From the NCBI GenBank assembly GCA_022548915.1, contig JAKZES010000007.1, forward strand, positions 1 through 64,000: a DNA stretch of 64,000 nucleotides. Direction: 5' to 3'. The stretch comes from Verrucomicrobiaceae bacterium E54 (GTDB lineage Bacteria; Verrucomicrobiota; Verrucomicrobiia; Verrucomicrobiales; Akkermansiaceae). A program made the position numbers and the translations under genes. Under the pieces are notes generated by a model. That model was not told where the DNA came from. It was given only the letters and a program-made list of their open reading frames with translations, and searched no databases. Below are positions 92 through 18,391 of this stretch, piece after piece. Numbering within the stretch: the stretch's first letter is position 1; each line of letters opens with the position of its first letter.

Positions 92-922
92 CTAGATCGT
101 CAATCGCTCCCCGGCGCGAAGCACGCGGCAGGTTTGGCCCAGCTCGCGACAGGTGGTTTCGAACAACTCGGGTGAGGCGGTGTTGAACTCGAACATCTCG
201 TAGTGGCAGGGCACCACCACGCCCGCGCCGAGCCGACGCGCCAGCTCCGCCGCCTCGCGGCCGTCGAGGTTTCCCGAGACGCGTCGCTCGGGCTTGTTGC
301 CATTGATCGGCAGCAGGGCCACGTCGACGGGTGTCCCGATCGCCTCCTCCATGCCCGGATACAGCAGGGTGTCGCCGCTGTGGTAGATGCGTTTTTCCCC
401 GACCGTCACCACGTAGCCGAGATAGAGATGGTTGCCGTTCCCGTCACGGTCCAGTTCGTTGTGGGCTGCGGGCACGGCCTCGATTCGAAGACCTTTCACC
501 TGTTCCATTGCCTCACCGGCGTTCATCGGCAGGAAGTTCCCTCCCCAGTCACCCAGGCGCTCGGCCGCCATCGCCGTGATCGCCCGCGGCAACACCAGCT
601 TCAGGTCGCGATTCACCTCGCGCATCGGCCGCAGCGTGCCGTGATCAAGGTGATCGGTGTGGGCGTGGGTGGAGGTGGCGAAGGACACGAAGTCGAGCTT
701 CGCCGGATCCAGCACCCGCTCGGTCATCCGCACGTGGGGCTTGTCGGTGGCGGCATACTTCTCGGTGAGCGTGTCCGAGAGGTAGGGATCGAAGACGAAA
801 TGCGTCGCACCATGCCGGACGAGGAAGCCACTCTGACCCAGCCACCAGATGTGGACTTGATCCGGTGACGCATTGGCGACATCAGCCAGCAGGGCCTCGT
901 CTTGAAGAACGGGTCGAATCAT
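92..922 (-). CDS. Metallo-beta-lactamase-fold metal-dependent hydrolase (UlaG-like)
   Basis: 276-residue predicted cytoplasmic hydrolase. The dinuclear-metal signature THAHTDHLD lies at about residues 85-93. Downstream ligands fit HSGD and the late PCHYEMF segment. Overall shape resembles the L-ascorbate-6-phosphate lactonase (UlaG)/UPF0173 branch of the fold; the substrate is not determinable. The frame is open 47 codons further upstream, but the ATG at 922 is preferred because it lies 5 bases after the stop of the MetE-like gene and starts just before the conserved domain. It is the last gene of a five-gene minus-strand operon. In this setting it could open a lactone or cleave a phosphoester made by the upstream enzymes (inference). 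Confidence 0.85.
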   Translation of the reverse strand: MIRPVLQDEALLADVANASPDQVHIWWLGQSGFLVRHGATHFVFDPYLSDTLTEKYAATDKPHVRMTERVLDPAKLDFVSFATSTHAHTDHLDHGTLRPMREVNRDLKLVLPRAITAMAAERLGDWGGNFLPMNAGEAMEQVKGLRIEAVPAAHNELDRDGNGNHLYLGYVVTVGEKRIYHSGDTLLYPGMEEAIGTPVDVALLPINGNKPERRVSGNLDGREAAELARRLGAGVVVPCHYEMFEFNTASPELFETTCRELGQTCRVLRAGERLTI

Positions 923-927
923 CGATC

Positions 928-1956
928 TCAAAGAGTTCGGAGAACGGCGTGGGTGCCTTCCACCATGTTGACCAGCTTGCGCTTGGCGGCCCAGCGGGCG
1001 GTCTGGCTGAGTCCGCAGTCGGGCGCGAACACCAACTTGTCGGCCGGGGCGTGTTCGAGACACAGGCGCACGCGGTCGCTGATGTCTTCGGGCGTTTCGA
1101 TGTAGTAACTCTTCACATCGACGATGCCGACGGCGACATCCATGCGCTCGGCGATCGGCGCGATCAATTCGATCTCGGCAAACTCGCGGCTGGCCATTTC
1201 AACGTGCATCTCGTCGGCCTTGAAGTCGAGGAATGCGGGAATCATCGGGGCAATGCGACGCAACCCGACGGCATGACCCTTGAAGTTGCCGAAGCAGAGG
1301 TGGGTGCAGAGGCGGGTCTTTCCGTACACCGACTCGACGGTGCGGTTGAAGATGTCGACGAACTTCGCAGTGTCCTCCTTGTAGGCGTAGCAACTCATCG
1401 ACGGTTCATCGACGCTGATCTCCTGGCAACCCGCGGCCACCAGGCCTTCGAGTTCCTTGCGCACCAGCGGCAGCAGGGCCTCGGTGATCGCCATGCGGTC
1501 CGGATACCGGTCATTGGGAAGAAGCCGGCCGCTGAGTGTGTAGGGGCCGGGCACCGAGGCCTTGAGCGTGACGCCTTCCGGGGCGAGTCGCTTGAGGCGC
1601 TCGTATTCCTCCACCGCCCCGAGTCCGTCGGGCGCGGTGAGTTCGCCGGAAATGCGGTGCTTGCCCCGCTGGTCGTGGGCCGGCGGGCCGTGCAGGCGCG
1701 GGCTCTTCGACTCGAGTTCGATGCCGGTCAGGTAGCCGTAGAACGAGAGGTTGAAATCGAAGCGGGTCTGCTCGCCATCGGTCACCACGTCGAGCCCGGC
1801 GGTGAGTTGGTCGTGAAGCGCGGTGACGACGGCATCGTCCTGCATTTCCTCGATCTCGGACGAGCCGAACTGATCAAGGTGGGCCGAAGCGAACTCGAGC
1901 CAGGACGGGAAGGGATAACTTCCGATGACGGAAGTGCGGAGCGGATTGTCTTTCAT
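928..1956 (-). CDS. MetE-type (cobalamin-independent) zinc methyltransferase, catalytic domain only
   Basis: 342 residues matching only the C-terminal barrel of cobalamin-independent methionine synthase, whose full-length enzymes are about 750 residues. The expected zinc ligands are visible: H219 and C221 in THLC, E253 in HVEMASR, and C314 in PDCGL. It opens with the family-typical TSVIGSYPFP. Such stand-alone cores move methyl or alkyl groups to or from thiols; some are methionine synthases, others work on different thiols. The ATG at 1956 overlaps the upstream oxidoreductase stop in an ATGA junction, so the two are probably translationally coupled. Being embedded in a catabolic-looking operon argues for a non-methionine role, but this is inference. 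Confidence 0.85.
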   Translation of the reverse strand: MKDNPLRTSVIGSYPFPSWLEFASAHLDQFGSSEIEEMQDDAVVTALHDQLTAGLDVVTDGEQTRFDFNLSFYGYLTGIELESKSPRLHGPPAHDQRGKHRISGELTAPDGLGAVEEYERLKRLAPEGVTLKASVPGPYTLSGRLLPNDRYPDRMAITEALLPLVRKELEGLVAAGCQEISVDEPSMSCYAYKEDTAKFVDIFNRTVESVYGKTRLCTHLCFGNFKGHAVGLRRIAPMIPAFLDFKADEMHVEMASREFAEIELIAPIAERMDVAVGIVDVKSYYIETPEDISDRVRLCLEHAPADKLVFAPDCGLSQTARWAAKRKLVNMVEGTHAVLRTL

Positions 1957-3341
1957 GGGATGGTTGGGGTGGATTGGTTGCCGGCCCATCCGTCGGGGCG
2001 GATGTCGGCCACGGATTCGGGCATTTCGAGAACGGCACCCTGGCGGCGGAGCAGGTCCTGCAGCCGGGGCATGGAAAGATCGGGAAGAGCGACGTCGTCC
2101 TCAAGCGAGAGCGCGGCGGCCGCCCCGCAGGCGTGCCCCATGGCCATCGTCTGCGCCATCGATCGGCAGGAGGCATGGGCATCGTGGGTGGCGCTGAAAC
2201 AACGCCCGGCGACCAGCGTGCGGGCATTTTCCTTCGGCAGGAAGCAGCGGTAAGGCACCTCGTAAACCCCGTTGTCCGGGATGTAAGCCCAGTGAGTCTC
2301 CTCCCCTCCCCCTTCGGATCGGCGGTGATCCTCAATGGGGGCACCGCAGACAAGCACCTTGTCGTCGAACGTGGCGCGACCCAGGCAGTCCCCGCGGGTC
2401 AGACGGTAGCGACCTTCGAGGCGCCGGCTTTCGCGCACCCCGATGCTCGACGACAGCCCGATGATCCGCGACTCGGCAAAGCCCACGACCCGGTCGCGCA
2501 GGAAAGCTTCGTAGATGAAGGCCTGCCGTCGACCTTCCTGCTCCGCGGCGGTGAGGTCCTCCGGATCGGTTGCACAAAACCCGGCCACGCGCACCGCCAC
2601 CGTCGAAATGCAGCCGGGCACGTTCATGCGGTGCACGCTGCCTTCCTTTCGCGGCAAGGGATGCACCCCCTCGTCCACCGCCCGGGCCATTTCCTTCATC
2701 AGCATCTGCTTCCCGCCGGCCTGCCGGTAGGCCTCGAGATCGACATTCGCCATGCGGAAGGTCGTGGTCATCGTCTGCGCCGGTTCCTTCTCACCCGCCG
2801 TCTCGCAGGCGATGCCGGAGCGATGACAGAAATCCGCGTCGCCGGTGGCATCGATGAACACCCGGGCCCGGATCCGGGAAAAGCCGGCCTTGCTCCAGAC
2901 GACCACGGCCTCGGGCGAGTCGGCCGAGCCTTCGACATCGACCAGATGGGTGTGGAGCAGGGTGCGCACGCCCGCTTCGTTGAGAAGTTCGTCCCACACC
3001 AGCTTCAAGCGCTCCGGGTTGTAGTTCACGCCGGTGCCGGCCCCGTAGGTGTTCGGCCGGAGGAAAATCGCGCCCACCGCATCGAGTGCGTCGACCACCC
3101 GGTCGCCGATGCCGCCCGCGACCTTTCGCGGTTCATCGCCGGGCGTGAAGAAGCCGTAGAAGGTGTCGAGCGCCTGGGTCGAAATCCCGCCCGGAAAGCC
3201 CGCGCGCTCGACCAGGGTGACCGAAGCCGCTCCCGACATCCTCGCCGCCAGCGCCGCACTGCAACCCGCCGAGCCACCTCCGAGAACCAGCACGTCGGTC
3301 TCGTGATGCAGCGGGATGCGGTCGTGGTCGAGGATGTCCAT
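1953..3341 (-). CDS. FAD-dependent oxidoreductase (FAD_oxidored family)
   Basis: 462 residues. An N-terminal Rossmann FAD site is seen at about residues 16-27 (DVLVLGGGSAG), followed by a GG-I-STQALDTFYGFF segment typical of the FAD_oxidored (PF12831-like) family often found in Verrucomicrobiota and Planctomycetota. A second dinucleotide-type segment, VFIDATGDAD, lies near residue 190. No signal peptide is evident, so it is predicted cytosolic. The start is the ATG at 3341, 7 bases after the SIS gene; an in-frame extension upstream reads through that gene and is rejected. Substrate unknown; likely oxidises a sugar- or polyol-like compound in the pathway encoded by this operon (inference). Confidence 0.85.
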   Translation of the reverse strand: MDILDHDRIPLHHETDVLVLGGGSAGCSAALAARMSGAASVTLVERAGFPGGISTQALDTFYGFFTPGDEPRKVAGGIGDRVVDALDAVGAIFLRPNTYGAGTGVNYNPERLKLVWDELLNEAGVRTLLHTHLVDVEGSADSPEAVVVWSKAGFSRIRARVFIDATGDADFCHRSGIACETAGEKEPAQTMTTTFRMANVDLEAYRQAGGKQMLMKEMARAVDEGVHPLPRKEGSVHRMNVPGCISTVAVRVAGFCATDPEDLTAAEQEGRRQAFIYEAFLRDRVVGFAESRIIGLSSSIGVRESRRLEGRYRLTRGDCLGRATFDDKVLVCGAPIEDHRRSEGGGEETHWAYIPDNGVYEVPYRCFLPKENARTLVAGRCFSATHDAHASCRSMAQTMAMGHACGAAAALSLEDDVALPDLSMPRLQDLLRRQGAVLEMPESVADIRPDGWAGNQSTPTIP

Positions 3342-3348
3342 CGATCCA

Positions 3349-4128
3349 TCAGGAACCCAGATTCTCGTAGTACTTCGCGATGCGGTGGGCGTGTTCGTCG
3401 TAGGCGGCCTCGAACAGCTCGACAGCCCGATCGGCACCGACGATTGCTCCGGCACTCAGGACCTTCGGCGGCTGTCCGGCGTCGGTGAGGCGCTTGGCCA
3501 CTTCGGCCTTCACCGAATTGACGATCAGGCACCCGCCGACGGTCGACCCGGGGGCCACCGGCGTGTCGAGACCCTCGATGGTCACCATCGCATCGCCGAC
3601 CGGCGCCCCGGTATCGAGCACGATGTCGGCGAAATCCTGCAACTTGCGTCCATCCCCGCGCTTGCTGGTGCTCGCCTCGGCATGCTGCCGGCTGATCAGG
3701 GCCACCACCTTCACGCCGCGCTTCTGGAAGATTTCGGCCATTTCGATGGGCACTACATTGCAGCCGCTCGACGAGACCACGAGGGCCGAGTCGCCTTCGC
3801 CGAGGTCGAAGTTGCGCAGGATGCGGTCGGCCAGGCCCGGAACATTTTCGAGGAACATCGCCTGGCGTTGCCCGTTGGCACCAACGACCAGGTTGTGGAA
3901 GGAAAGCGACAGCTCGACGATCGGGTTGAAGCCGGGGAACGAGCCATAACGCGGCCACATTTCCTCGGTCATGATGCGGCTGTGGCCCGAACCGAAGAGA
4001 TGGACCATGCGACCGCCGAGGATGGTCCGGCTGAACAGATCGGCCGTCTCCTCGATGAGCGACTGCTGCGATTCGACCGCATCGATGAGCGCGCGGCATT
4101 TTTCGAGATACTGGAGCGAAGGAGTCAT
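3349..4128 (-). CDS. SIS-domain phosphosugar-binding protein (UPF0309 type)
   Basis: 259 residues with a sugar-isomerase (SIS) fold. The phosphosugar-binding elements are FGSGHSRIMTEE near residue 45 and a VVSSSGCNVVP serine-rich loop near residue 118, followed by VVALISRQHA. The pattern matches the UPF0309 family of uncharacterised sugar isomerase/phosphosugar-binding proteins rather than GlmS, KpsF or MurQ. It is second in the operon, 39 bases after the SDR gene. It suggests that a phosphorylated sugar or amino sugar is an intermediate of the pathway or the signal for it. Confidence 0.85.
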   Translation of the reverse strand: MTPSLQYLEKCRALIDAVESQQSLIEETADLFSRTILGGRMVHLFGSGHSRIMTEEMWPRYGSFPGFNPIVELSLSFHNLVVGANGQRQAMFLENVPGLADRILRNFDLGEGDSALVVSSSGCNVVPIEMAEIFQKRGVKVVALISRQHAEASTSKRGDGRKLQDFADIVLDTGAPVGDAMVTIEGLDTPVAPGSTVGGCLIVNSVKAEVAKRLTDAGQPPKVLSAGAIVGADRAVELFEAAYDEHAHRIAKYYENLGS

Positions 4129-4167
4129 GAATGTTGTTGATTACCAATGAGCAAGCGGACCGACCAC

Positions 4168-4992
4168 TCAGATCTGGCCTTCCGAAACCGTCCATCCTCC
4201 GTCCACGGCGATGACCTGGGCGGTCACGAAGCGGCTGCGCCGGGAAAGGAGATAGACCGCCAGGTCGTCGAGGTCCTCCGGACGGCCGATCCGGCCTCCG
4301 TCGAGCGGCTGCTTGGTCTTGATGAAGGACTGGATGACCTCGTCGCCGGCCGCGCGCTTCGCCATGGGGGTCTCGACCAGCGCCGGGGCGATGACGTTCA
4401 CGCGGATGTCATCGGCCGCGTAGCGCGCCGCGACCGACTTGCTGAAGCCGACGATCGCCGACTTCGCCGCCGCGTAGACGTGAGTGGTGAAATACTTCGG
4501 CGAGGGCGACCAGCCGAGCACCGAGCCCATGTTCAGCACGCTGCCGGGGGTCCCCTGGTCGAGAAACTGCGAAACCGCGGCGCGGTTGCTGCGGATGAGG
4601 GACTTCAGGTTCAGGTCGAGCGTGGCGTCGATGCCTTCGTCGGTCACCTCGTGCAAGGGGCCGTCGCCAAAGGAGCGACCGCTGCCGCCGGCCACGTGGT
4701 AGAGGCCGCCAAGCGACCCGAATTTCTCCACGCAACGGGCGATCGCCTCGAGCGAGGTCTCGGAGGACACGGCATCGCCCGCAAACCCGGCCGCCCGACC
4801 GGGGGCCAACTCGTCCAACCCGGCGACGGCCTTCTGAACGTTCTCCGGGTTCCTGCCGACGACCACCACCCCTGCGCCCTCGCGGACACAGGCGCGGGCG
4901 GCCGAAAGACCGAGCCCGGTGGTTCCACCGATGATCACCACCCCTTGCCCCGTCAAAATGCCGGATTCCATGACCCCCGGAGCATCCACCAT
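4168..4992 (-). CDS. Short-chain dehydrogenase/reductase (SDR), first gene of operon
   Basis: 274-residue classical SDR. The NAD(P)-binding GGTTGLG is at residues 22-28. The catalytic S157, Y173 and K177 fit the S...YxxxK pattern (VYAAAK). It ends with a VIAVDGGW motif typical of the family. Two ATG starts are possible, 4992 and 4971; the first is used because it sits just downstream of a promoter-like site at 5007-5035. The frame remains open upstream antisense to the AraC gene, but that part is not protein-like. Probably oxidises a hydroxyl group of the pathway substrate. Divergently transcribed from the PAS-AraC gene, which is the obvious candidate regulator. Confidence 0.85.
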   Translation of the reverse strand: MVDAPGVMESGILTGQGVVIIGGTTGLGLSAARACVREGAGVVVVGRNPENVQKAVAGLDELAPGRAAGFAGDAVSSETSLEAIARCVEKFGSLGGLYHVAGGSGRSFGDGPLHEVTDEGIDATLDLNLKSLIRSNRAAVSQFLDQGTPGSVLNMGSVLGWSPSPKYFTTHVYAAAKSAIVGFSKSVAARYAADDIRVNVIAPALVETPMAKRAAGDEVIQSFIKTKQPLDGGRIGRPEDLDDLAVYLLSRRSRFVTAQVIAVDGGWTVSEGQI

Positions 4993-5006
4993 CCGCCACG
5001 CCCCGT

Positions 5007-5035
5007 CTTGTAAGCCTTGCGCTTTCGTGTGTAAA
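5007..5035 (-). promoter_or_regulatory. Promoter-like site for the SDR-led operon, in a shared divergent region
   Basis: On the minus strand TTTACA is followed after 17 bases by TACAAG, placing a transcription start about 8 bases before the ATG at 4992. The same 51-bp gap also carries a plus-strand TTGTAA-N18-TAAAAA pair that would start the AraC transcript at or next to its ATG. Overlapping divergent promoters would make the two transcripts mutually exclusive or jointly regulated. Pattern reading only. Confidence 0.45.
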
Positions 5036-5043
5036 AATTCGGC

Positions 5044-5787
5044 ATGCCCGATTCCTTCGATGCCGAAACCCAACTCCAAAAGGTCGATTGGCGGGAGGTG
5101 GTTCACCAGCTCGGATCGCTGCTCGAGAAGGATGCGTTCTTCATCAAGGACACCCGGGGCCGCTTCATCCTGCAGAACCGACGGGCGTATGAATACTGCA
5201 ACGCCCGCAGCGAGGACGAGACCCTGGGCAAGCGCGACGCCGACTTCTTTTCCCGGGAAAGGGCGGCCATCTACGAAGAGGGCGACCAGCAGGTCATCCG
5301 CAGCGGGAAACCCATCCTCAACGAGATCGCCCCGGCACCGGAGGAGGCGGGCTCGCACAACCTCGTGCTCTACAGCAAGTTCCCGGTGCGGGATGCCGGC
5401 GGCCGGGTCATCGGCGTGGCCGGCATTCACCGGCTCGTGGAGGAATCCGCTACCGGCCCGACCCATCTCGGCCCCCTTTTCCCGGCCGTCCGACGCATGC
5501 ATACCGCCTTTGCCGAGGACCTCCGCATCGTCGATCTGGCGCGCCGCACCGGTCTGTCCCACAGCCAGTTCTCACGGCGCTTCAAGAGCGTCCTCGGGGT
5601 CCCTCCCAAGGACTACCTGCTCCGGGTCCGGGTTCGCCACGCCCGCCGCCTGCTGGAAACCACCGACCGCACCGTCTCCGACGTCGCGCTTGCCAGCGGC
5701 TTCTACGACCACAGCCACTTCTCTCATGCCTTCCGGCGGCTCACCGGCGTCGGCCCGGCGGCCTATCGGGAGGCCCACCGGGGCTGA
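5044..5787 (+). CDS. AraC-family transcriptional regulator with N-terminal PAS sensor
   Basis: 247 residues. The first ~125 form a PAS-like sensor (DAFFIKDTRGRFILQN ... GRVIGVAGIHR). The last ~100 form the AraC double helix-turn-helix: LRIVDLARRTGLSHSQFSRR for the first helix pair and VSDVALASGFYDHSHFSHAF for the second. It lacks the cupin sensor usual in AraC sugar regulators; the PAS could bind a small ligand, haem or flavin. The ATG at 5044 is 51 bases from the divergent SDR start, so it most likely controls the operon at 92-4992 and perhaps the permease downstream. Confidence 0.92.
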   Translation: MPDSFDAETQLQKVDWREVVHQLGSLLEKDAFFIKDTRGRFILQNRRAYEYCNARSEDETLGKRDADFFSRERAAIYEEGDQQVIRSGKPILNEIAPAPEEAGSHNLVLYSKFPVRDAGGRVIGVAGIHRLVEESATGPTHLGPLFPAVRRMHTAFAEDLRIVDLARRTGLSHSQFSRRFKSVLGVPPKDYLLRVRVRHARRLLETTDRTVSDVALASGFYDHSHFSHAFRRLTGVGPAAYREAHRG

Positions 5788-5955
5788 AGGCCGGCACCAG
5801 CCTCAACCCACCAAGATCCTATCCAAGAGGGAGAAGCAATTTGATGGTGGAATGCCGATCCGGGTGGATCGTGGGCTTGCACAGGCCGGGTGGTGGACGC
5901 TATTTTCCATGTGGGTGATCTGGTTCGGTGGATCACTGTTCAACCCCCCGACGCC

Positions 5956-6798
5956 ATGCAGATCAGCTATCTGCGCAAGAGTTCCGCCTGGATTCTGGTG
6001 GTTCTCGCAACGGCGTTGATGCTGGGGTCGAAGAACGGACTCGGGGCGGAGGAAGCGCTGATGATCTTCGCGCTGTGCTTCGCCTGTGAATTGGTCGATA
6101 GCGGGCTCGGCATGGGCTACGGGACGATCCTCACGCCGACCCTGCTGCTGCTCGGCTTCCGTCCGCACGAGATCGTGCCGACGATCCTTTTTTCCGAGCT
6201 GTTGAGCGGCCTCACCGCGAGTTTCTTCCACCACCAGGCCCGCAATGTCGACCTGCGGCCGTCGGGTGCCGATCTCAAGCCAGCGTTGCTCCTCGCCGGT
6301 GGCAGCGTGGCCGGGGTCGCTGTCGGGGTTGCCCTCGCCGTCAACCTCAGCAGTGAGTGGCTGAGCCTCGTGATCGGGCTCATCATCCTGTCCTCGGGCC
6401 TTTGCGTGATCCTCCTCTCGAAGCGCGTTGTCGCGTTCCGGACTTGGAAGATTCTCGCACTCGCCGGCGTCGCTTCGTTCAACAAGGCGCTGAGCGGCGG
6501 AGGCTACGGGCCGCTGGTCACCAGCGGGCAGATCCTGACCGGCATCCGCGGGCAGGCGGCCGTCGGCATCACCTCCTTCGCCGAGGCGTTCACCTGTCTG
6601 GTCGCCGTTGCCCTTTTCATGGTGCAAGGGGACTACCTCAATCTGCCACTGCTCATCCCGATGTGTGCCGGAGCACTGGTGTCGGTTCCCTTCTCGGTGT
6701 TCGCGATCAGCAAGACCCGGGAGCATCACCTCAAGGTCGTCATCGGCGTTGTGACGGTCCTGATGGGCGGGCTTACCATCTACAAGGCGCTCCATTGA
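5956..6798 (+). CDS. TauE/SafE-family membrane permease (sulfite/sulfonate exporter type)
   Basis: About 280 residues, very hydrophobic, with about eight membrane segments in two repeated halves. The family-like stretches ELVDSGLGMGYGTILTP and NKALSGGGYGP are present. TauE/SafE proteins move sulfite, sulfoacetate or related organosulfur anions, but many members are uncharacterised. An in-frame GTG at 5890 would add 22 residues; the ATG at 5956 is preferred because the extra part is not hydrophobic. Neither start has a clear ribosome-binding site. It lies 168 bases downstream of the AraC gene in the same direction, and may export a sulfur-containing product of the adjacent operon (inference). 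Confidence 0.85.
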   Translation: MQISYLRKSSAWILVVLATALMLGSKNGLGAEEALMIFALCFACELVDSGLGMGYGTILTPTLLLLGFRPHEIVPTILFSELLSGLTASFFHHQARNVDLRPSGADLKPALLLAGGSVAGVAVGVALAVNLSSEWLSLVIGLIILSSGLCVILLSKRVVAFRTWKILALAGVASFNKALSGGGYGPLVTSGQILTGIRGQAAVGITSFAEAFTCLVAVALFMVQGDYLNLPLLIPMCAGALVSVPFSVFAISKTREHHLKVVIGVVTVLMGGLTIYKALH

Positions 6799-8289: not shown

Positions 8290-8345
8290 GGCACGAACGT
8301 CGCTTGTCAGCGACTTGCATCGCAGATCCCAACAACACTATTGCC

Positions 8346-8807
8346 ATGAAAATTCGCCACTACGCATTGCTTGCCAGCCTGCCTCTCTTCATCGCCTCCT
8401 GCGGAAAGACCGAAACCACCGAAGTGAAGATCGAAGAAGCCGCCGAAGAGGCTGCCGCCGCTGCTGAAGAAGCCGCTGAAGCTGCCGAGGAAGCCGCCGC
8501 CGCTGCATCCGAAGGCACCGCCGCCGCTGCTGAAGAGGCCACCGAAGCCGCCGAGGAAGCGGCCGAAGAAGCCACCGAAGCGGCTGAAGAAGCGGTCGAA
8601 GCCACCGAAACCGCCGTCGAGGAAGCCGGCGCGGCCGCCGAAGAAGCGGCCGAAGAGGCCACCGAAGCCACGGAGGGCGCCGTCGAAGAAGCGGTTGAAG
8701 ACGCCGGCTCGGCGGTTGAGGAAGCCACCGAGGAGGCAACCGGCGCCGCTGAAGCGGCCGCGGGTGCCGTGCTCGGCGGAGCCGCCGAAGAGCCGACCGA
8801 ACCTTGA
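8346..8807 (+). CDS. Ala/Glu-rich acidic lipoprotein
   Basis: 153 residues. A lipoprotein signal peptide ends in FIASC, with the lipidated cysteine at residue 19. From about residue 28 to the end it consists almost only of Ala and Glu with scattered Thr, Val and Gly in EEAAEEA-type heptad-like runs, so a single long acidic helix or coiled coil is expected. There is no recognisable enzymatic domain. The start is the ATG at 8346, which begins a normal signal peptide; an upstream in-frame start is not supported. It could act as a periplasmic spacer or outer-membrane tether, but unlike Braun's lipoprotein it has no C-terminal lysine. A clear terminator follows, so it is monocistronic. Confidence 0.75.
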   Translation: MKIRHYALLASLPLFIASCGKTETTEVKIEEAAEEAAAAAEEAAEAAEEAAAAASEGTAAAAEEATEAAEEAAEEATEAAEEAVEATETAVEEAGAAAEEAAEEATEATEGAVEEAVEDAGSAVEEATEEATGAAEAAAGAVLGGAAEEPTEP

Positions 8808-14937: not shown

Positions 14938-15552
14938 TCAATCCCACATCGGATCCTCCCAATCCGCCGGGTCGGTGCCGATGCTTTCGGCGATCTCCAC
15001 GGGCAGGAAGACCACCTCGCTCGCATCCTCCTCGGTCGCCTGCATCCGGAATCTCAGCATCTTCCGCGCGCGCCCGCCCGGGCCGGCCACCGAGGCATCG
15101 ACCCAGACCTCCAGCCCGCCGTCCTCCTCGGGCTTGACCTTGAGCAATCCGGGAATCGGATAGCGGGCCCGGACCACCCCGGGCTTGTCCTTCAGCGGAC
15201 GGAATTCGGCGACGGCACCCAGTTCACCGGCGGGAAACCACTCGTCGCGACCCGTCTTCAGCGTCCGGGTCCGGATGCGATGGACGGTGAATGATTCGTG
15301 CCTGCCCGCCTCGCCCAGGGCCTCGACCCGCCACTTGAACGGCCCGTCGAGGGTCGCCATGCCGCCACCGACCACCATGGCACTGACCATGAACGAACCC
15401 GGTCGCGATCCCTCGGGGCGAAAGGCCACGCGGACCTCGGCACCGCCCAGCTCGCTGCCGCGGGCCGGACCGGCGTAGGTGTGCTTGGTCGCCTTGAGGC
15501 CGATGCACGACACCAGCGTCAGGGTCGGAGCGATGAGGAGCAGCCATTTCAT
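14938..15552 (-). CDS. Putative lipoprotein of unknown function
   Basis: 204 residues. The signal sequence with lipobox LTLVSC places the lipidated cysteine at residue 16. The rest is a basic, beta-rich, soluble domain with no recognised family. A C-terminal acidic end (DPADWEDPMWD) is notable. It is upstream of and co-directional with the PBP2 gene, with 37 bases between them that hold the PBP2 promoter. It is divergent from the M48 protease gene. Confidence 0.7.
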   Translation of the reverse strand: MKWLLLIAPTLTLVSCIGLKATKHTYAGPARGSELGGAEVRVAFRPEGSRPGSFMVSAMVVGGGMATLDGPFKWRVEALGEAGRHESFTVHRIRTRTLKTGRDEWFPAGELGAVAEFRPLKDKPGVVRARYPIPGLLKVKPEEDGGLEVWVDASVAGPGGRARKMLRFRMQATEEDASEVVFLPVEIAESIGTDPADWEDPMWD

Positions 15553-15634
15553 CCACCCAGCATCCCGTCACCCGACGCGCTTGGCCAGCCCGCACTTGCC
15601 CTGCCGCGCGCCGGGTGCATTCTCACGGCGAACC

Positions 15635-16891
15635 ATGGAACCCAACGCCCTTGGCCTCATCATCCTCATCGCGCTCTTCGCGCTGTGGAATCTCGACTTC
15701 GTCGCCACCATTCTCAACCTCCGCTCGCTCAGCTCGGAGCCGCCGGAGGAACTCGCCGACGTTTTCGACGCGGAAAAATACGCCAAGTCGCAGGACTACA
15801 CGCGCACCAACGCCCGCTTCGGGGTCATCGAGTCCGTCGTTTCCCTGTTCACCCTGCTGGCCTTCTGGTTCGCCGGAGGCTTCGGCTGGATCGATGACCT
15901 CACCCGCTCGGCTCTCGGCAACGGCCTGCCGGCCGGCCTCGCCTTCCTGAGCATCATTTTCCTCGGCCACTACCTGATCCACCTGCCGCTCTCGATCTAC
16001 GCCACCTTCGTCATCGAGGAACGCTTCGGCTTCAACCGCACCACCCCGAAGACCTTCATCATCGATCAGATCAAGAACCTCGTCCTTTCCGCCCTGCTGG
16101 GACTGCCGCTGGCCGCCGGGGTCATCTGGATCTTCGGCAACGTCGAAATGGCGTGGCTGTGGGCGTGGATCCTCTTCACCGTCGTCCAGATCGTCCTCAT
16201 GTGGCTGGCACCGACCCTCATCCTCCCCCTCTTCAACAAGTTCGAGCCGATGCCCGAGGGGCCGCTGCGCTCGTCCATCGAGGCCATGGCCGCCAAGTGC
16301 GGCTTCCCCATCGGCGAAATCTCGGTGATGGATGGCTCCAAGCGCTCGACCAAGGCCAACGCCTATTTCACCGGCTTCGGCAAGACCAAGCGCATCGCCC
16401 TCTACGACACGCTGGTCGAGGAGCAGACCGATGACGAGCTGGTGGCCGTCCTCGCCCACGAGATCGGTCATTTCAAGTGCCGCCACATCGTCCAGCGCCT
16501 CGCCGTCTCGATTGTCCAGAGCGCGGTCCTCTTCTTCCTCCTCGGTCTGGCGGTCGATCGCGACGGGGCCTTCGCCCGCGAGCTCTTCGACGCCTTCGGC
16601 GTGGGCAAGATCACTCCGGCGGTCGGGCTGGTCCTGTTCGGCATTCTCTTCACCCCCGCCAGCCGCCTCCTCGGAGTCCTTTCCAACGCCTGGTCCCGCA
16701 AGCACGAGTTCGAAGCCGACGCCTTCGCCTCCGACGCCGTCGGTGGCCCCGGCCCCCTCATCAGCGCGCTCAAGAAACTCTCCGCCAAGAACCTCTCCAA
16801 CCTCACGCCGCACCGCCTGCGGGTCGTCCTCGACTATTCCCATCCCCCGCTCCCGGAAAGGCTGCGAGCGCTGGCCGCCCTCCGGGCCTGA
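15635..16891 (+). CDS. M48-family membrane zinc metalloprotease (Ste24/CAAX protease 1-like)
   Basis: 418 residues with several membrane segments (about 5-30, 65-85, 100-125, 150-200, 290-310, 325-345). The zinc-binding HEIGH is at 275-279, with the third ligand probably E358 in RKHEFEADAF. That arrangement is characteristic of the M48A Ste24 branch, not the shorter HtpX. Likely degrades misfolded inner-membrane proteins or processes hydrophobic substrates. The ATG at 15635 begins a hydrophobic N-terminus; the open frame upstream is antisense to the lipoprotein gene. Confidence 0.9.
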   Translation: MEPNALGLIILIALFALWNLDFVATILNLRSLSSEPPEELADVFDAEKYAKSQDYTRTNARFGVIESVVSLFTLLAFWFAGGFGWIDDLTRSALGNGLPAGLAFLSIIFLGHYLIHLPLSIYATFVIEERFGFNRTTPKTFIIDQIKNLVLSALLGLPLAAGVIWIFGNVEMAWLWAWILFTVVQIVLMWLAPTLILPLFNKFEPMPEGPLRSSIEAMAAKCGFPIGEISVMDGSKRSTKANAYFTGFGKTKRIALYDTLVEEQTDDELVAVLAHEIGHFKCRHIVQRLAVSIVQSAVLFFLLGLAVDRDGAFARELFDAFGVGKITPAVGLVLFGILFTPASRLLGVLSNAWSRKHEFEADAFASDAVGGPGPLISALKKLSAKNLSNLTPHRLRVVLDYSHPPLPERLRALAALRA

Positions 16892-16931
16892 GGCCCGAAG
16901 ACAGAAGACTGGAAGACCGAAGGCCGAAGAC

Positions 16932-16959
16932 CTAGACTGCGGCGCTTCAGCGCCGCTTT
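16932..16959. repeat. 28-bp palindromic repeat (CTAGACTGCGGCG family)
   Basis: A GCGGCGctTCAgCGCCGC palindrome preceded by CTAGACT and followed by TTT. It is followed by a second small palindrome, CCCCAAGGGG. The same 28-bp unit with two substitutions occurs twice at 54043-54149, so this is a dispersed family. Confidence 0.7.
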
Positions 16960-16987
16960 CCCCAAGGGGCTTCAGCACCGCCTCCAG

Positions 16988-17014
16988 TCTCCCATCTCCC
17001 ATCTCCCATCTCCC
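16988..17014. repeat. Heptanucleotide tandem repeat TCTCCCA
   Basis: Three perfect TCTCCCA units and a partial fourth, ending one base before the aldo-keto reductase start codon. It occupies the place where a ribosome-binding site is expected, and none is visible. Copy-number change here could alter expression (inference). Confidence 0.8.
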
Positions 17015-17015
17015 C

Positions 17016-18008
17016 ATGCACTCCGCCGATCCCGACCGCTACCTCGACCGCATGCCCTACCGCCGCTGCGGCCACTCCGGCCTGCTGCTTCCCGAGATCT
17101 CCCTCGGCTGCTGGCACAACTTCGGCCACGTCGATGACCAGCACGAGGCCCGCGCCATCCTGCGCCGCGCCTTCGACCGTGGGCTGACCCACTTCGACCT
17201 CGCCAACAACTACGGCCCGCCGCCCGGCAGCGCCGAGGAAAACGTCGGCCGCTTCCTCGCCGAGGACTTCGCCGCCCACCGCGACGAACTCGTGATCTCG
17301 TCGAAGGCCGGCCACCTGATGTGGCAGGGACCCTATGGCGAGTTCGGCTCGCGCAAGCACCTGCTCTCCTCACTCGACCAGTCGCTCAAGCGCCTGCGCC
17401 TCGACTACGTCGACATCTTCTACTCGCACTGCCCCGACCCGAAGACGCCGATCGAGGAAACCATGGGCGCCCTCGCCACCGCCGTGCAGCAGGGCAAGGC
17501 CCTCTACGTCGGACTGTCGAAATACCCGCTCAAGCGACTCAAGAAGGCCGTCAGGATCCTCGCCGACCTCGGCACCCCCTGCCTGATCTATCAGCCGCCC
17601 TATTCCATCCTTCAGCGCTGGCCCGAGTCGAAGGGCATCCACGAGTGGCTCGACGAAAAGGGGATCGGCTCCATCGTCTTCAGCCCGCTCGCCCAGGGCA
17701 TGCTCACCGGCAAGTATCTCGACGGCATCCCGTCGGAGTCCCGCGCGGGACGTCCCGAGGGGTTCCTCCAGACCGAGCAGGTGGAGCAGCAGCTCGACCG
17801 CATCCGCCAACTCGGTGCCGTGGCCGACGAGGCCGGCATGCCGCTCCAGCACCTCGCCCTGCGCTGGGCCCTCCAGCAGAAGGGCGTCACCTCGGCATTG
17901 ATCGGTGCCCGCACCGTCGCCCAGCTCGACGACTGCCTCGACGCGCTCGACCGACCGGCACTGACGGAGGACCTGCTCAAGCGCATCGACGAAATCGCCC
18001 CGGCGTGA
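17016..18008 (+). CDS. yghZ: Aldo/keto reductase, L-glyceraldehyde 3-phosphate reductase type (YghZ/Gpr-like)
   Basis: 330 residues, strongly similar along its whole length to E. coli YghZ (AKR14). MPYRRCGHSGLLLP, then LGCWHNFGHV, and THFDLANNYGPPPGSAEEN contains the catalytic aspartate and tyrosine. The catalytic lysine is in SSKAG and the histidine in FYSHCPD. SLIGARTVAQ-like residues near the C-terminus bind NADPH. Reduces aldehydes such as L-glyceraldehyde 3-phosphate and methylglyoxal. The ATG at 17016 directly follows a heptanucleotide repeat. Its stop overlaps the GTG of the DUF3293 gene. Confidence 0.93.
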   Translation: MHSADPDRYLDRMPYRRCGHSGLLLPEISLGCWHNFGHVDDQHEARAILRRAFDRGLTHFDLANNYGPPPGSAEENVGRFLAEDFAAHRDELVISSKAGHLMWQGPYGEFGSRKHLLSSLDQSLKRLRLDYVDIFYSHCPDPKTPIEETMGALATAVQQGKALYVGLSKYPLKRLKKAVRILADLGTPCLIYQPPYSILQRWPESKGIHEWLDEKGIGSIVFSPLAQGMLTGKYLDGIPSESRAGRPEGFLQTEQVEQQLDRIRQLGAVADEAGMPLQHLALRWALQQKGVTSALIGARTVAQLDDCLDALDRPALTEDLLKRIDEIAPA

Positions 18009-18391
18009 GCTTCCCCGCCAGCTACTACGAAACCCGTTTCACTCTGGTCGGCGCACCCGATCCGCTACCACCGCGGTTCGCCATCATCACCGCCCACAAC
18101 CCGATGGACCGCCCTTGGTCGCCGCGGATGAACGCCACCGCCGACCAGCGTCTGCGGCGTCTCCTGGAGCGCAAGCTCCTCCCCCATTTCCGCGCCACCG
18201 GACACGCGCCGGACCACTCCCACGCCGAGCCCGGCTGGGCCATCGTCACGGACCTTGGCACCGCCCTCGCGATTGCGCGGCGCTTCAAGCAACGCGCCCT
18301 GTGGTGGATCGAGGACAACGAGCTGCATCTTATCGCCTCGGCACGCCAGCGTCGCGAAATACCCGGTACCTTTACTGAGAGGATCGCCTGA
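18005..18391 (+). CDS. DUF3293-containing small protein
   Basis: 128 residues, starting at GTG 18005, which overlaps the aldo-keto reductase stop in a GTGA junction. The order FAIITAHNPMDRPWSP, then HAEPGWAIV, then IARRFKQRALWWIEDNELHLI matches the DUF3293 family of small proteins of unknown function. No signal peptide or membrane segment. Co-transcription with the reductase is likely. Confidence 0.8.
   Translation: MSFPASYYETRFTLVGAPDPLPPRFAIITAHNPMDRPWSPRMNATADQRLRRLLERKLLPHFRATGHAPDHSHAEPGWAIVTDLGTALAIARRFKQRALWWIEDNELHLIASARQRREIPGTFTERIA

Follow-up and report, generated by a model that had tools for sequence, protein, structure and literature searches.

A MetE-like protein co-inherited with a NagS-like SIS protein and a UlaG-like lactonase, and its possible part in the catabolism of an O-methylated sugar

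We analysed a stretch of 64,000 nucleotides from Verrucomicrobiaceae bacterium E54 (hereafter the window; bases 1-64000 of contig C233, GenBank JAKZES010000007.1, in a genome of 5.9 Mb), which begins with an operon that encodes a MetE-like core methyltransferase together with proteins predicted to act on sugars. Five genes on the minus strand, spaced by -4 to +39 bp, are separated by a gap of 72 bp from the divergent gene of a PAS-AraC regulator, which is followed by the gene of a TauE/SafE permease. Coordinates, sequence and profile searches placed all seven genes where the original prediction, made from the letters of the window, had put them. The features are as follows.

92-922, minus strand: metallo-beta-lactamase (MBL)-fold hydrolase, UlaG-like; predicted phospho-sugar lactonase (PF12706, 80.8 bits)
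928-1956, minus strand: core MetE-like methyltransferase; predicted methyl transfer to homocysteine (PF01717, 90.4 bits)
1953-3341, minus strand: FAD-dependent oxidoreductase; predicted sugar oxidase or dehydrogenase (PF12831, 319.9 bits)
3349-4128, minus strand: NagS-like SIS protein (UPF0309); predicted phosphosugar dehydratase (PRK02947, 270.6 bits against a cut-off of 135)
4168-4971, minus strand: short-chain dehydrogenase/reductase (SDR); predicted lactol or sugar dehydrogenase (PF13561, 164 bits)
5005-5037, minus strand: putative AraC operator in the divergent promoter region, TTTTTACAC-N15-TTACAAGAC, with TTACA repeated 21 bp apart
5044-5787, plus strand: PAS-AraC regulator, divergent from the operon (PF12833, PF08448)
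5890-6798, plus strand: TauE/SafE permease

Base 1 of the window is the first base of C233 and the operon ends 91 bases from this contig edge, so that it is cut there. The predicted arrangement of five genes divergent from the PAS-AraC regulator therefore stands, but the operon is not complete within the window. A query with a Gfo/Idh/MocA protein of the related genome G210 matched, at 74% identity, a gene at one end of contig C217 of the window's genome, where four genes (stretch L108) lie on the same relative strand.

C217 27678-28631: phosphotriesterase-family protein (PTE), phospho-lactonase-like
C217 26599-27681: Gfo/Idh/MocA oxidoreductase, family GFO10
C217 25484-26602: Gfo/Idh/MocA oxidoreductase, family GFO9
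C217 24637-25434: 3-keto-disaccharide hydrolase

In an uncut relative, locus L027, the genes run in the order SDR, Khk kinase, SIS, FAD oxidoreductase, MetE-like, MBL, PTE, GFO10, GFO9 and 3-keto-disaccharide hydrolase (the kinase family was assigned by Pfam in locus L018, the hydrolase family also by Pfam). The end of C217 is likely to be the remainder of the window's operon, in the order of L027, and the two contigs presumably abut.

Linkage of these genes was followed in 86 other loci, six of them from 288 sampled genomes of the phylum and the rest being the best 80 of 497 named loci; cluster counts come from a clustering of all open reading frames (ORFs), and many of the loci end at contig edges. 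The MetE-like protein is 71-79% identical to the six others from the sampled genomes and belongs to a distinct clade with 70-81% identity across phyla; its identity to the best 80 of the 497 named loci is 70-80%, and nine further genomes of the phylum hold distant relatives only, at 28-31% identity. The titles of these best 80 name Verrucomicrobia, Planctomycetota, Bacteroidetes, Gemmatimonadota, Latescibacterota, Chloroflexi, KSB1, Acidobacteria and Abditibacteriaceae, of which single phylum labels may be wrong because most of these loci are metagenome bins; the nearest named records, among the matches listed, are from Verrucomicrobiales and Opitutaceae. Near the MetE-like gene we found SIS in 64 of the 86 loci, MBL in 57, SDR in 39, ROK kinase in 27, GFO9 in 20, GFO10 in 19, PTE in 10 and the FAD oxidoreductase in 9. 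Where the gene is flanked by more than 6 kb on each side (36 loci), the counts were SIS 29, MBL 22, SDR 21, ROK 14, GFO9 11, GFO10 10, FAD 7 and PTE 7. The neighbouring SIS proteins fall into two groups, 44 that closely resemble that of the window (>350 bits) and 24 that are more distant. A gene-neighbourhood check had been proposed with the original prediction, and in these 86 loci the linkage is conserved across phyla.

The same genes also occur together across the 288 sampled genomes. The MetE-like gene (>70% identity) is present in seven of them, a close SIS (at least 74% identity) in seven, among 59 matches at E 1e-20, MBL at 50% identity or above in eight, among 27 matches at E 1e-30, and GFO10 at E 1e-60 in eight, one GFO10 match being broken by a TGA (G234) and one split over contigs (G217). 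All seven genomes with the MetE-like gene also carry the close SIS, MBL and GFO10, and the genomes beyond the shared seven are G078 (MBL) and G189 (GFO10). In G187, G190 and G199 the module genes lie on separate contigs or far apart, yet they co-occur; none of them was found in the three sampled genus mates or in the 17 listed members of the family. If genera are taken as independent, the odds that two genes would match exactly in 5 of 151 genera are 1.6e-9; the carriers are not fully independent, with three in one genus and five in one family. By these computations the MetE-like core enzyme, the NagS-like SIS protein and the UlaG-like lactonase form a co-inherited core, which is usually joined by the SDR and often by a sugar kinase, Gfo/Idh/MocA oxidoreductases and the phosphotriesterase-family lactonase.

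The MetE-like protein is 342 amino acids long and forms one barrel; when its own genome was searched for the N-terminal barrel of MetE (PF08267), the only match was the MetE-like gene itself, and a weak one. Alignment to the structure 3rpd and to Thermotoga maritima MetE shows that the homocysteine residues Ser13, Glu62 and Asp183 are each kept in 86 of 86 homologues, Ser13 and Glu62 lying within two search patterns that were used to collect the loci, so that their invariance is partly selected. The zinc residues His219, Cys221, Glu253 and Cys314, already recognised as ligands in the original prediction, are likewise each kept in 86 of 86. The donor side differs. According to the accessible text of PMC539065, Arg493 and Arg496 of T. 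maritima MetE, on a hairpin, bind the folate tail and Trp539 stacks on the pterin (numbering offset 32, derived from DMV at 467 in the same text). At the aligned position of this hairpin stands the motif GPPAHDQRG(K/R)H, whose positions are invariant in the 86 homologues except for G98 (85/86) and K99 (K in 71, R in 13), and Arg144 replaces Trp539 and Cys189 replaces Glu583, both in 86/86. As judged from the alignment, the folate contacts Arg493, Arg496, Trp539 and Glu583 of MetE are thus not kept. Set A3, which covers 31 of the 86 close homologues, includes eight of the nine distant relatives, and in none of these eight was the motif found. The charged residues of the motif would be compatible with a phosphorylated donor. 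AlphaFold modelled the protein with a predicted local distance difference test score (pLDDT) of 88.2, and the best structural match of the model is MesD (3rpd; template modelling (TM) score 0.80-0.82).

The SIS protein is of the UPF0309 type, as had been predicted, and its solved relatives are 3cvj and 9eol (NagS; 102.5 bits). NagS is described in the available part of PMC12680351 as a GlcNAc-6-phosphate (N-acetylglucosamine 6-phosphate) dehydratase that gives a hex-2-enofuranose 6-phosphate, that is inactive without H53, R64, E94 or D179, and that is limited to Streptomycetaceae. These four catalytic residues are kept in 44 of 44 close SIS homologues, and the phosphate serines of NagS are kept in the window's protein. 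We read this as probable NagS-type chemistry on another phosphosugar.

The model of the MBL protein (pLDDT 94.9) is closest in fold to UlaG (2wyl, TM 0.82), and the metal motif H86-H88-D90-H91 (HxHxDH) is present in 57 of 57 homologues; the protein scores 39.8 bits with the NCBIfam UlaG equivalog and does not reach its cut-off of 306. PTE has as its best match a phospho-furanose lactonase at 170 bits, below the cut-off of 630, and the SDR has as its best NCBIfam match PRK07231, glucose 1-dehydrogenase, at 167.8 bits, below the cut-off of 215. The FAD oxidoreductase is 68% identical to its homologue in L018. A 2-keto-3-deoxy-6-phosphogluconate (KDPG) aldolase adjoining MBL was first seen in G078 (L120 6743-7429), a genome without the MetE-like gene; in L089 and L099 the aldolase gene immediately follows MBL, in L097 it stands between the SDR and MetE-like genes, and all three proteins pass the TIGR01182 cut-off.

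The PAS-AraC regulator and its divergently encoded counterpart in L018 share 60% identity, and among the 86 loci matches above 100 bits occur only in L018 and L027. The operator pattern stands at the same place in the promoter regions of the window, L018 and L027; with up to 3 mismatches allowed, it has 1 match in the window and 0 in 100 shuffles.

Taken together, these observations lead us to propose, tentatively and with somewhat less than even confidence, that the operon serves to process an O-methylated sugar on the uptake side and to break it down, with the MetE-like protein passing the methyl group to homocysteine. A methylated hexose would be phosphorylated at C6, and the SIS protein would, like NagS, remove the 3-OH to yield a 2-methoxy-2,3-enofuranose 6-phosphate. 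The SDR would oxidise the lactol to a butenolide, the MetE-like protein would transfer the methyl group from the activated enol ether to zinc-bound homocysteine, giving methionine, and the UlaG-like enzyme would open the lactone to a 2-keto-3-deoxy-6-phospho-acid, which KDPG aldolase could split. PAS-AraC would turn the operon on through the paired TTACA sites. The position of the methyl group at C2, the order of the steps and direct rather than corrinoid-borne transfer are parts of the scheme that we infer; the order SIS, SDR, MetE-like, MBL is suggested by the consideration that the 2-methoxy-enofuranose 6-phosphate, once oxidised at C1, would be a butenolide like ascorbate 6-phosphate. A more specific claim, that the clade is a fifth family of core MetE enzymes and a homocysteine-dependent sugar-ether demethylase, is more doubtful; in this version the methyl group would come straight from the dehydrated and oxidised methyl-sugar phosphate, oxygen, corrinoid and folate would not be needed, and the breakdown would yield methionine and, by way of the UlaG-like lactonase and KDPG aldolase, pyruvate and a triose phosphate.

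Several observations weigh against this proposal. The motif stretch of the MetE-like protein is modelled at low confidence (pLDDT about 63-65). In the SIS protein, Met takes the place of NagS Ser91 in all 44 close homologues, and one of these 44 retains Asn228, the others having mostly Ala, Val or Cys there. No kinase was found in the window or in the retrieved end of C217, ROK kinases elsewhere in the genome not having been searched, and this genome lacks the Khk-type kinase that its closest relatives have, which was found in one of seven carriers searched (G210). Three of the 86 clusters, two of which come from Roseibacillus, include KDPG aldolase, and its family PF01081 is present in 18 of 18 carrier genomes searched, so that only the position of the gene counts as evidence. 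In G187, G190, G199 and several named loci the MetE-like gene has no adjoining SIS or MBL. The identities of MetE-like, SIS and MBL proteins are weakly correlated across loci (Spearman 0.38, 0.43 and 0.11), which does not demonstrate strict co-inheritance. In L063 and L104 neither MetH nor a full MetE was found. Finally, two of the 86 loci encode corrinoid proteins, which suggests that a corrinoid may deliver the methyl group.

This last point leads to the alternative that survives best, although we hold it to be rather unlikely: a UroD-type enzyme would move the sugar methyl to a corrinoid, and the MetE-like protein would act as the second methyltransferase, from corrinoid to homocysteine. 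In L097 the genes of UroD, SIS, SDR, KDPG aldolase, a corrinoid protein, MetE-like and MBL follow each other in a row on one strand, the corrinoid protein directly upstream of MetE-like, and in L052 a UroD, a corrinoid protein and a second UroD lie between the kinase and SIS genes. The accessible text of PMC7857596 adds that characterised core MetE proteins use methylcobalamin in vitro. UroD-type methyltransferases occur in 4 of the 86 loci (L030, L033, L052 and L097), and corrinoid proteins in L052 and L097 only, with TIGR02370 scores of 196 and 199 bits, below the cut-off of 215. Such genomes contain many UroD relatives, so that the two corrinoid cases weigh most. Their rarity speaks against this alternative, as does the lack of any corrinoid protein in the window or the C217 end, the rest of this genome not having been searched. 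The partner genes of L052 and L097 speak for chemistry on methyl groups and leave room for the corrinoid route.

Other neighbours (GMC, PhyH, DAO and amidohydrolase) were seen in single or few loci. In the Latescibacterota loci L046 and L055 a PhyH dioxygenase gene stands directly after MetE-like (named by Pfam in L055 and by eye in L046), and in L055 a DAO-type FAD oxidase also stands directly after it. Sulfatase genes directly precede SIS and MetE-like in three Caldilineaceae records (L073 7688-9058, L090 7689-9062 and L104 7694-9064); sulfatases were named by eye in most loci and confirmed by Pfam for L073 and 3 members. The Pfam census of neighbour genes covered 51 of the 82 listed genes.

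It is also conceivable, though unlikely, that the MetE-like protein is an accessory methionine synthase of a fifth core family with an unspecified donor, its gene lying beside sugar genes by habit. All zinc and homocysteine residues are intact, and in L063 and L104, the two carriers without matches to MetH or full MetE, the MetE-like enzyme could make methionine. In one of the 86 loci, L044, genes like MetW, MetX and MetY (named by eye) lie at 14987-18368, 4-7 kb from MetE-like. On the other side, MetH is present in 17 of 19 carriers tested (this genome and 16 of 18 others); in this genome its open frame is 1284 amino acids long, and methionine supply as the sole role of the MetE-like protein is rejected here. 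The presence of the MetE-like gene is patchy (7 of 288 genomes), it co-occurs with SIS and MBL even when unlinked, and an Rfam scan returned only tRNA in the window and only tRNA in six loci, hence no S-adenosylmethionine (SAM) or cobalamin riboswitch in either.

Still less probable is a reuse of the MetE fold for some other zinc reaction on a sugar, such as a lyase or isomerase step, with no methyl transfer. A donor side rebuilt around its own invariant motif would agree with it, whereas the homocysteine-holding Ser13, Glu62 and Asp183 in all 86 homologues (the first two within the search patterns) and the methyltransferase partners in some clusters argue against it. The catabolism of a sulfur sugar with TauE exporting a sulfur anion, as the original prediction had it, was rejected as very improbable: in the window TauE comes immediately downstream of AraC, but none of the 86 other loci has a TauE match over 40 bits, and so TauE falls outside the conserved set.

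Beyond the TauE gene, the window holds a lipoprotein-like ORF and then a long Ala/Glu-rich repeat of the AAEEAAEAAEEA type (8304-8807, plus strand).

Our preferred reading thus strengthens the idea of a catabolic operon and shifts it from sulfur to methyl groups. Of the sulfur- or methyl-containing sugar derivative first suggested, the methyl part remains and the sulfur part is dropped together with TauE, and the notion of a MetE core that moves an alkyl group is supported by the intact zinc and homocysteine residues and by the corrinoid and UroD genes in the clusters of a few relatives. Algal and microbial polysaccharides commonly contain O-methylated sugars. If the proposal is true, a route from sugar methyl to homocysteine would link the supply of methionine in Verrucomicrobiota, Planctomycetota, Bacteroidota and other phyla with the degradation of polysaccharides, and a role would be assigned to a MetE-like family found as accessory genes. 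Sugar demethylation by a relative of MetE was not found described in the open-access literature searched.

Among known systems, the core MetE proteins MesA-MesD, as presented in the accessible part of PMC7857596, share with the MetE-like protein the single catalytic barrel, the zinc ligands H, C, E and C and the homocysteine residues S, E and D. MesD (3rpd) is about 25% identical to it in the fold alignment and has residues inserted after HxC that the MetE-like protein lacks; MesX (PF08908), the partner of MesD, had no match in this genome, with the control likewise silent (0 of 14 genomes). Unlike MesA-MesD, the MetE-like protein has an invariant motif of its own and sits in sugar catabolic operons. 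NagS, as far as the available part of PMC12680351 describes it, is homologous to the window's SIS protein and shares its catalytic residues and phosphate serines, and differs at Ser91 (Met), at the mostly lost Asn228 and in its operon context. UlaG, the L-ascorbate-6-phosphate lactonase, has the fold and metal motif of the MBL protein, which however scores far under the UlaG equivalog cut-off and has no ascorbate genes seen beside it. Corrinoid O-demethylases, made of a UroD-type enzyme and a corrinoid protein, have their genes in the clusters of L052 and L097 and not in the window's operon. The one bacterial route of sugar demethylation that turned up in the open-access literature searched is oxidative: a cytochrome P450 reportedly demethylates 6-O-methyl-galactose with the use of oxygen, giving formaldehyde. 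It also removes a methyl ether from a sugar, and the operon described here would instead give methionine.

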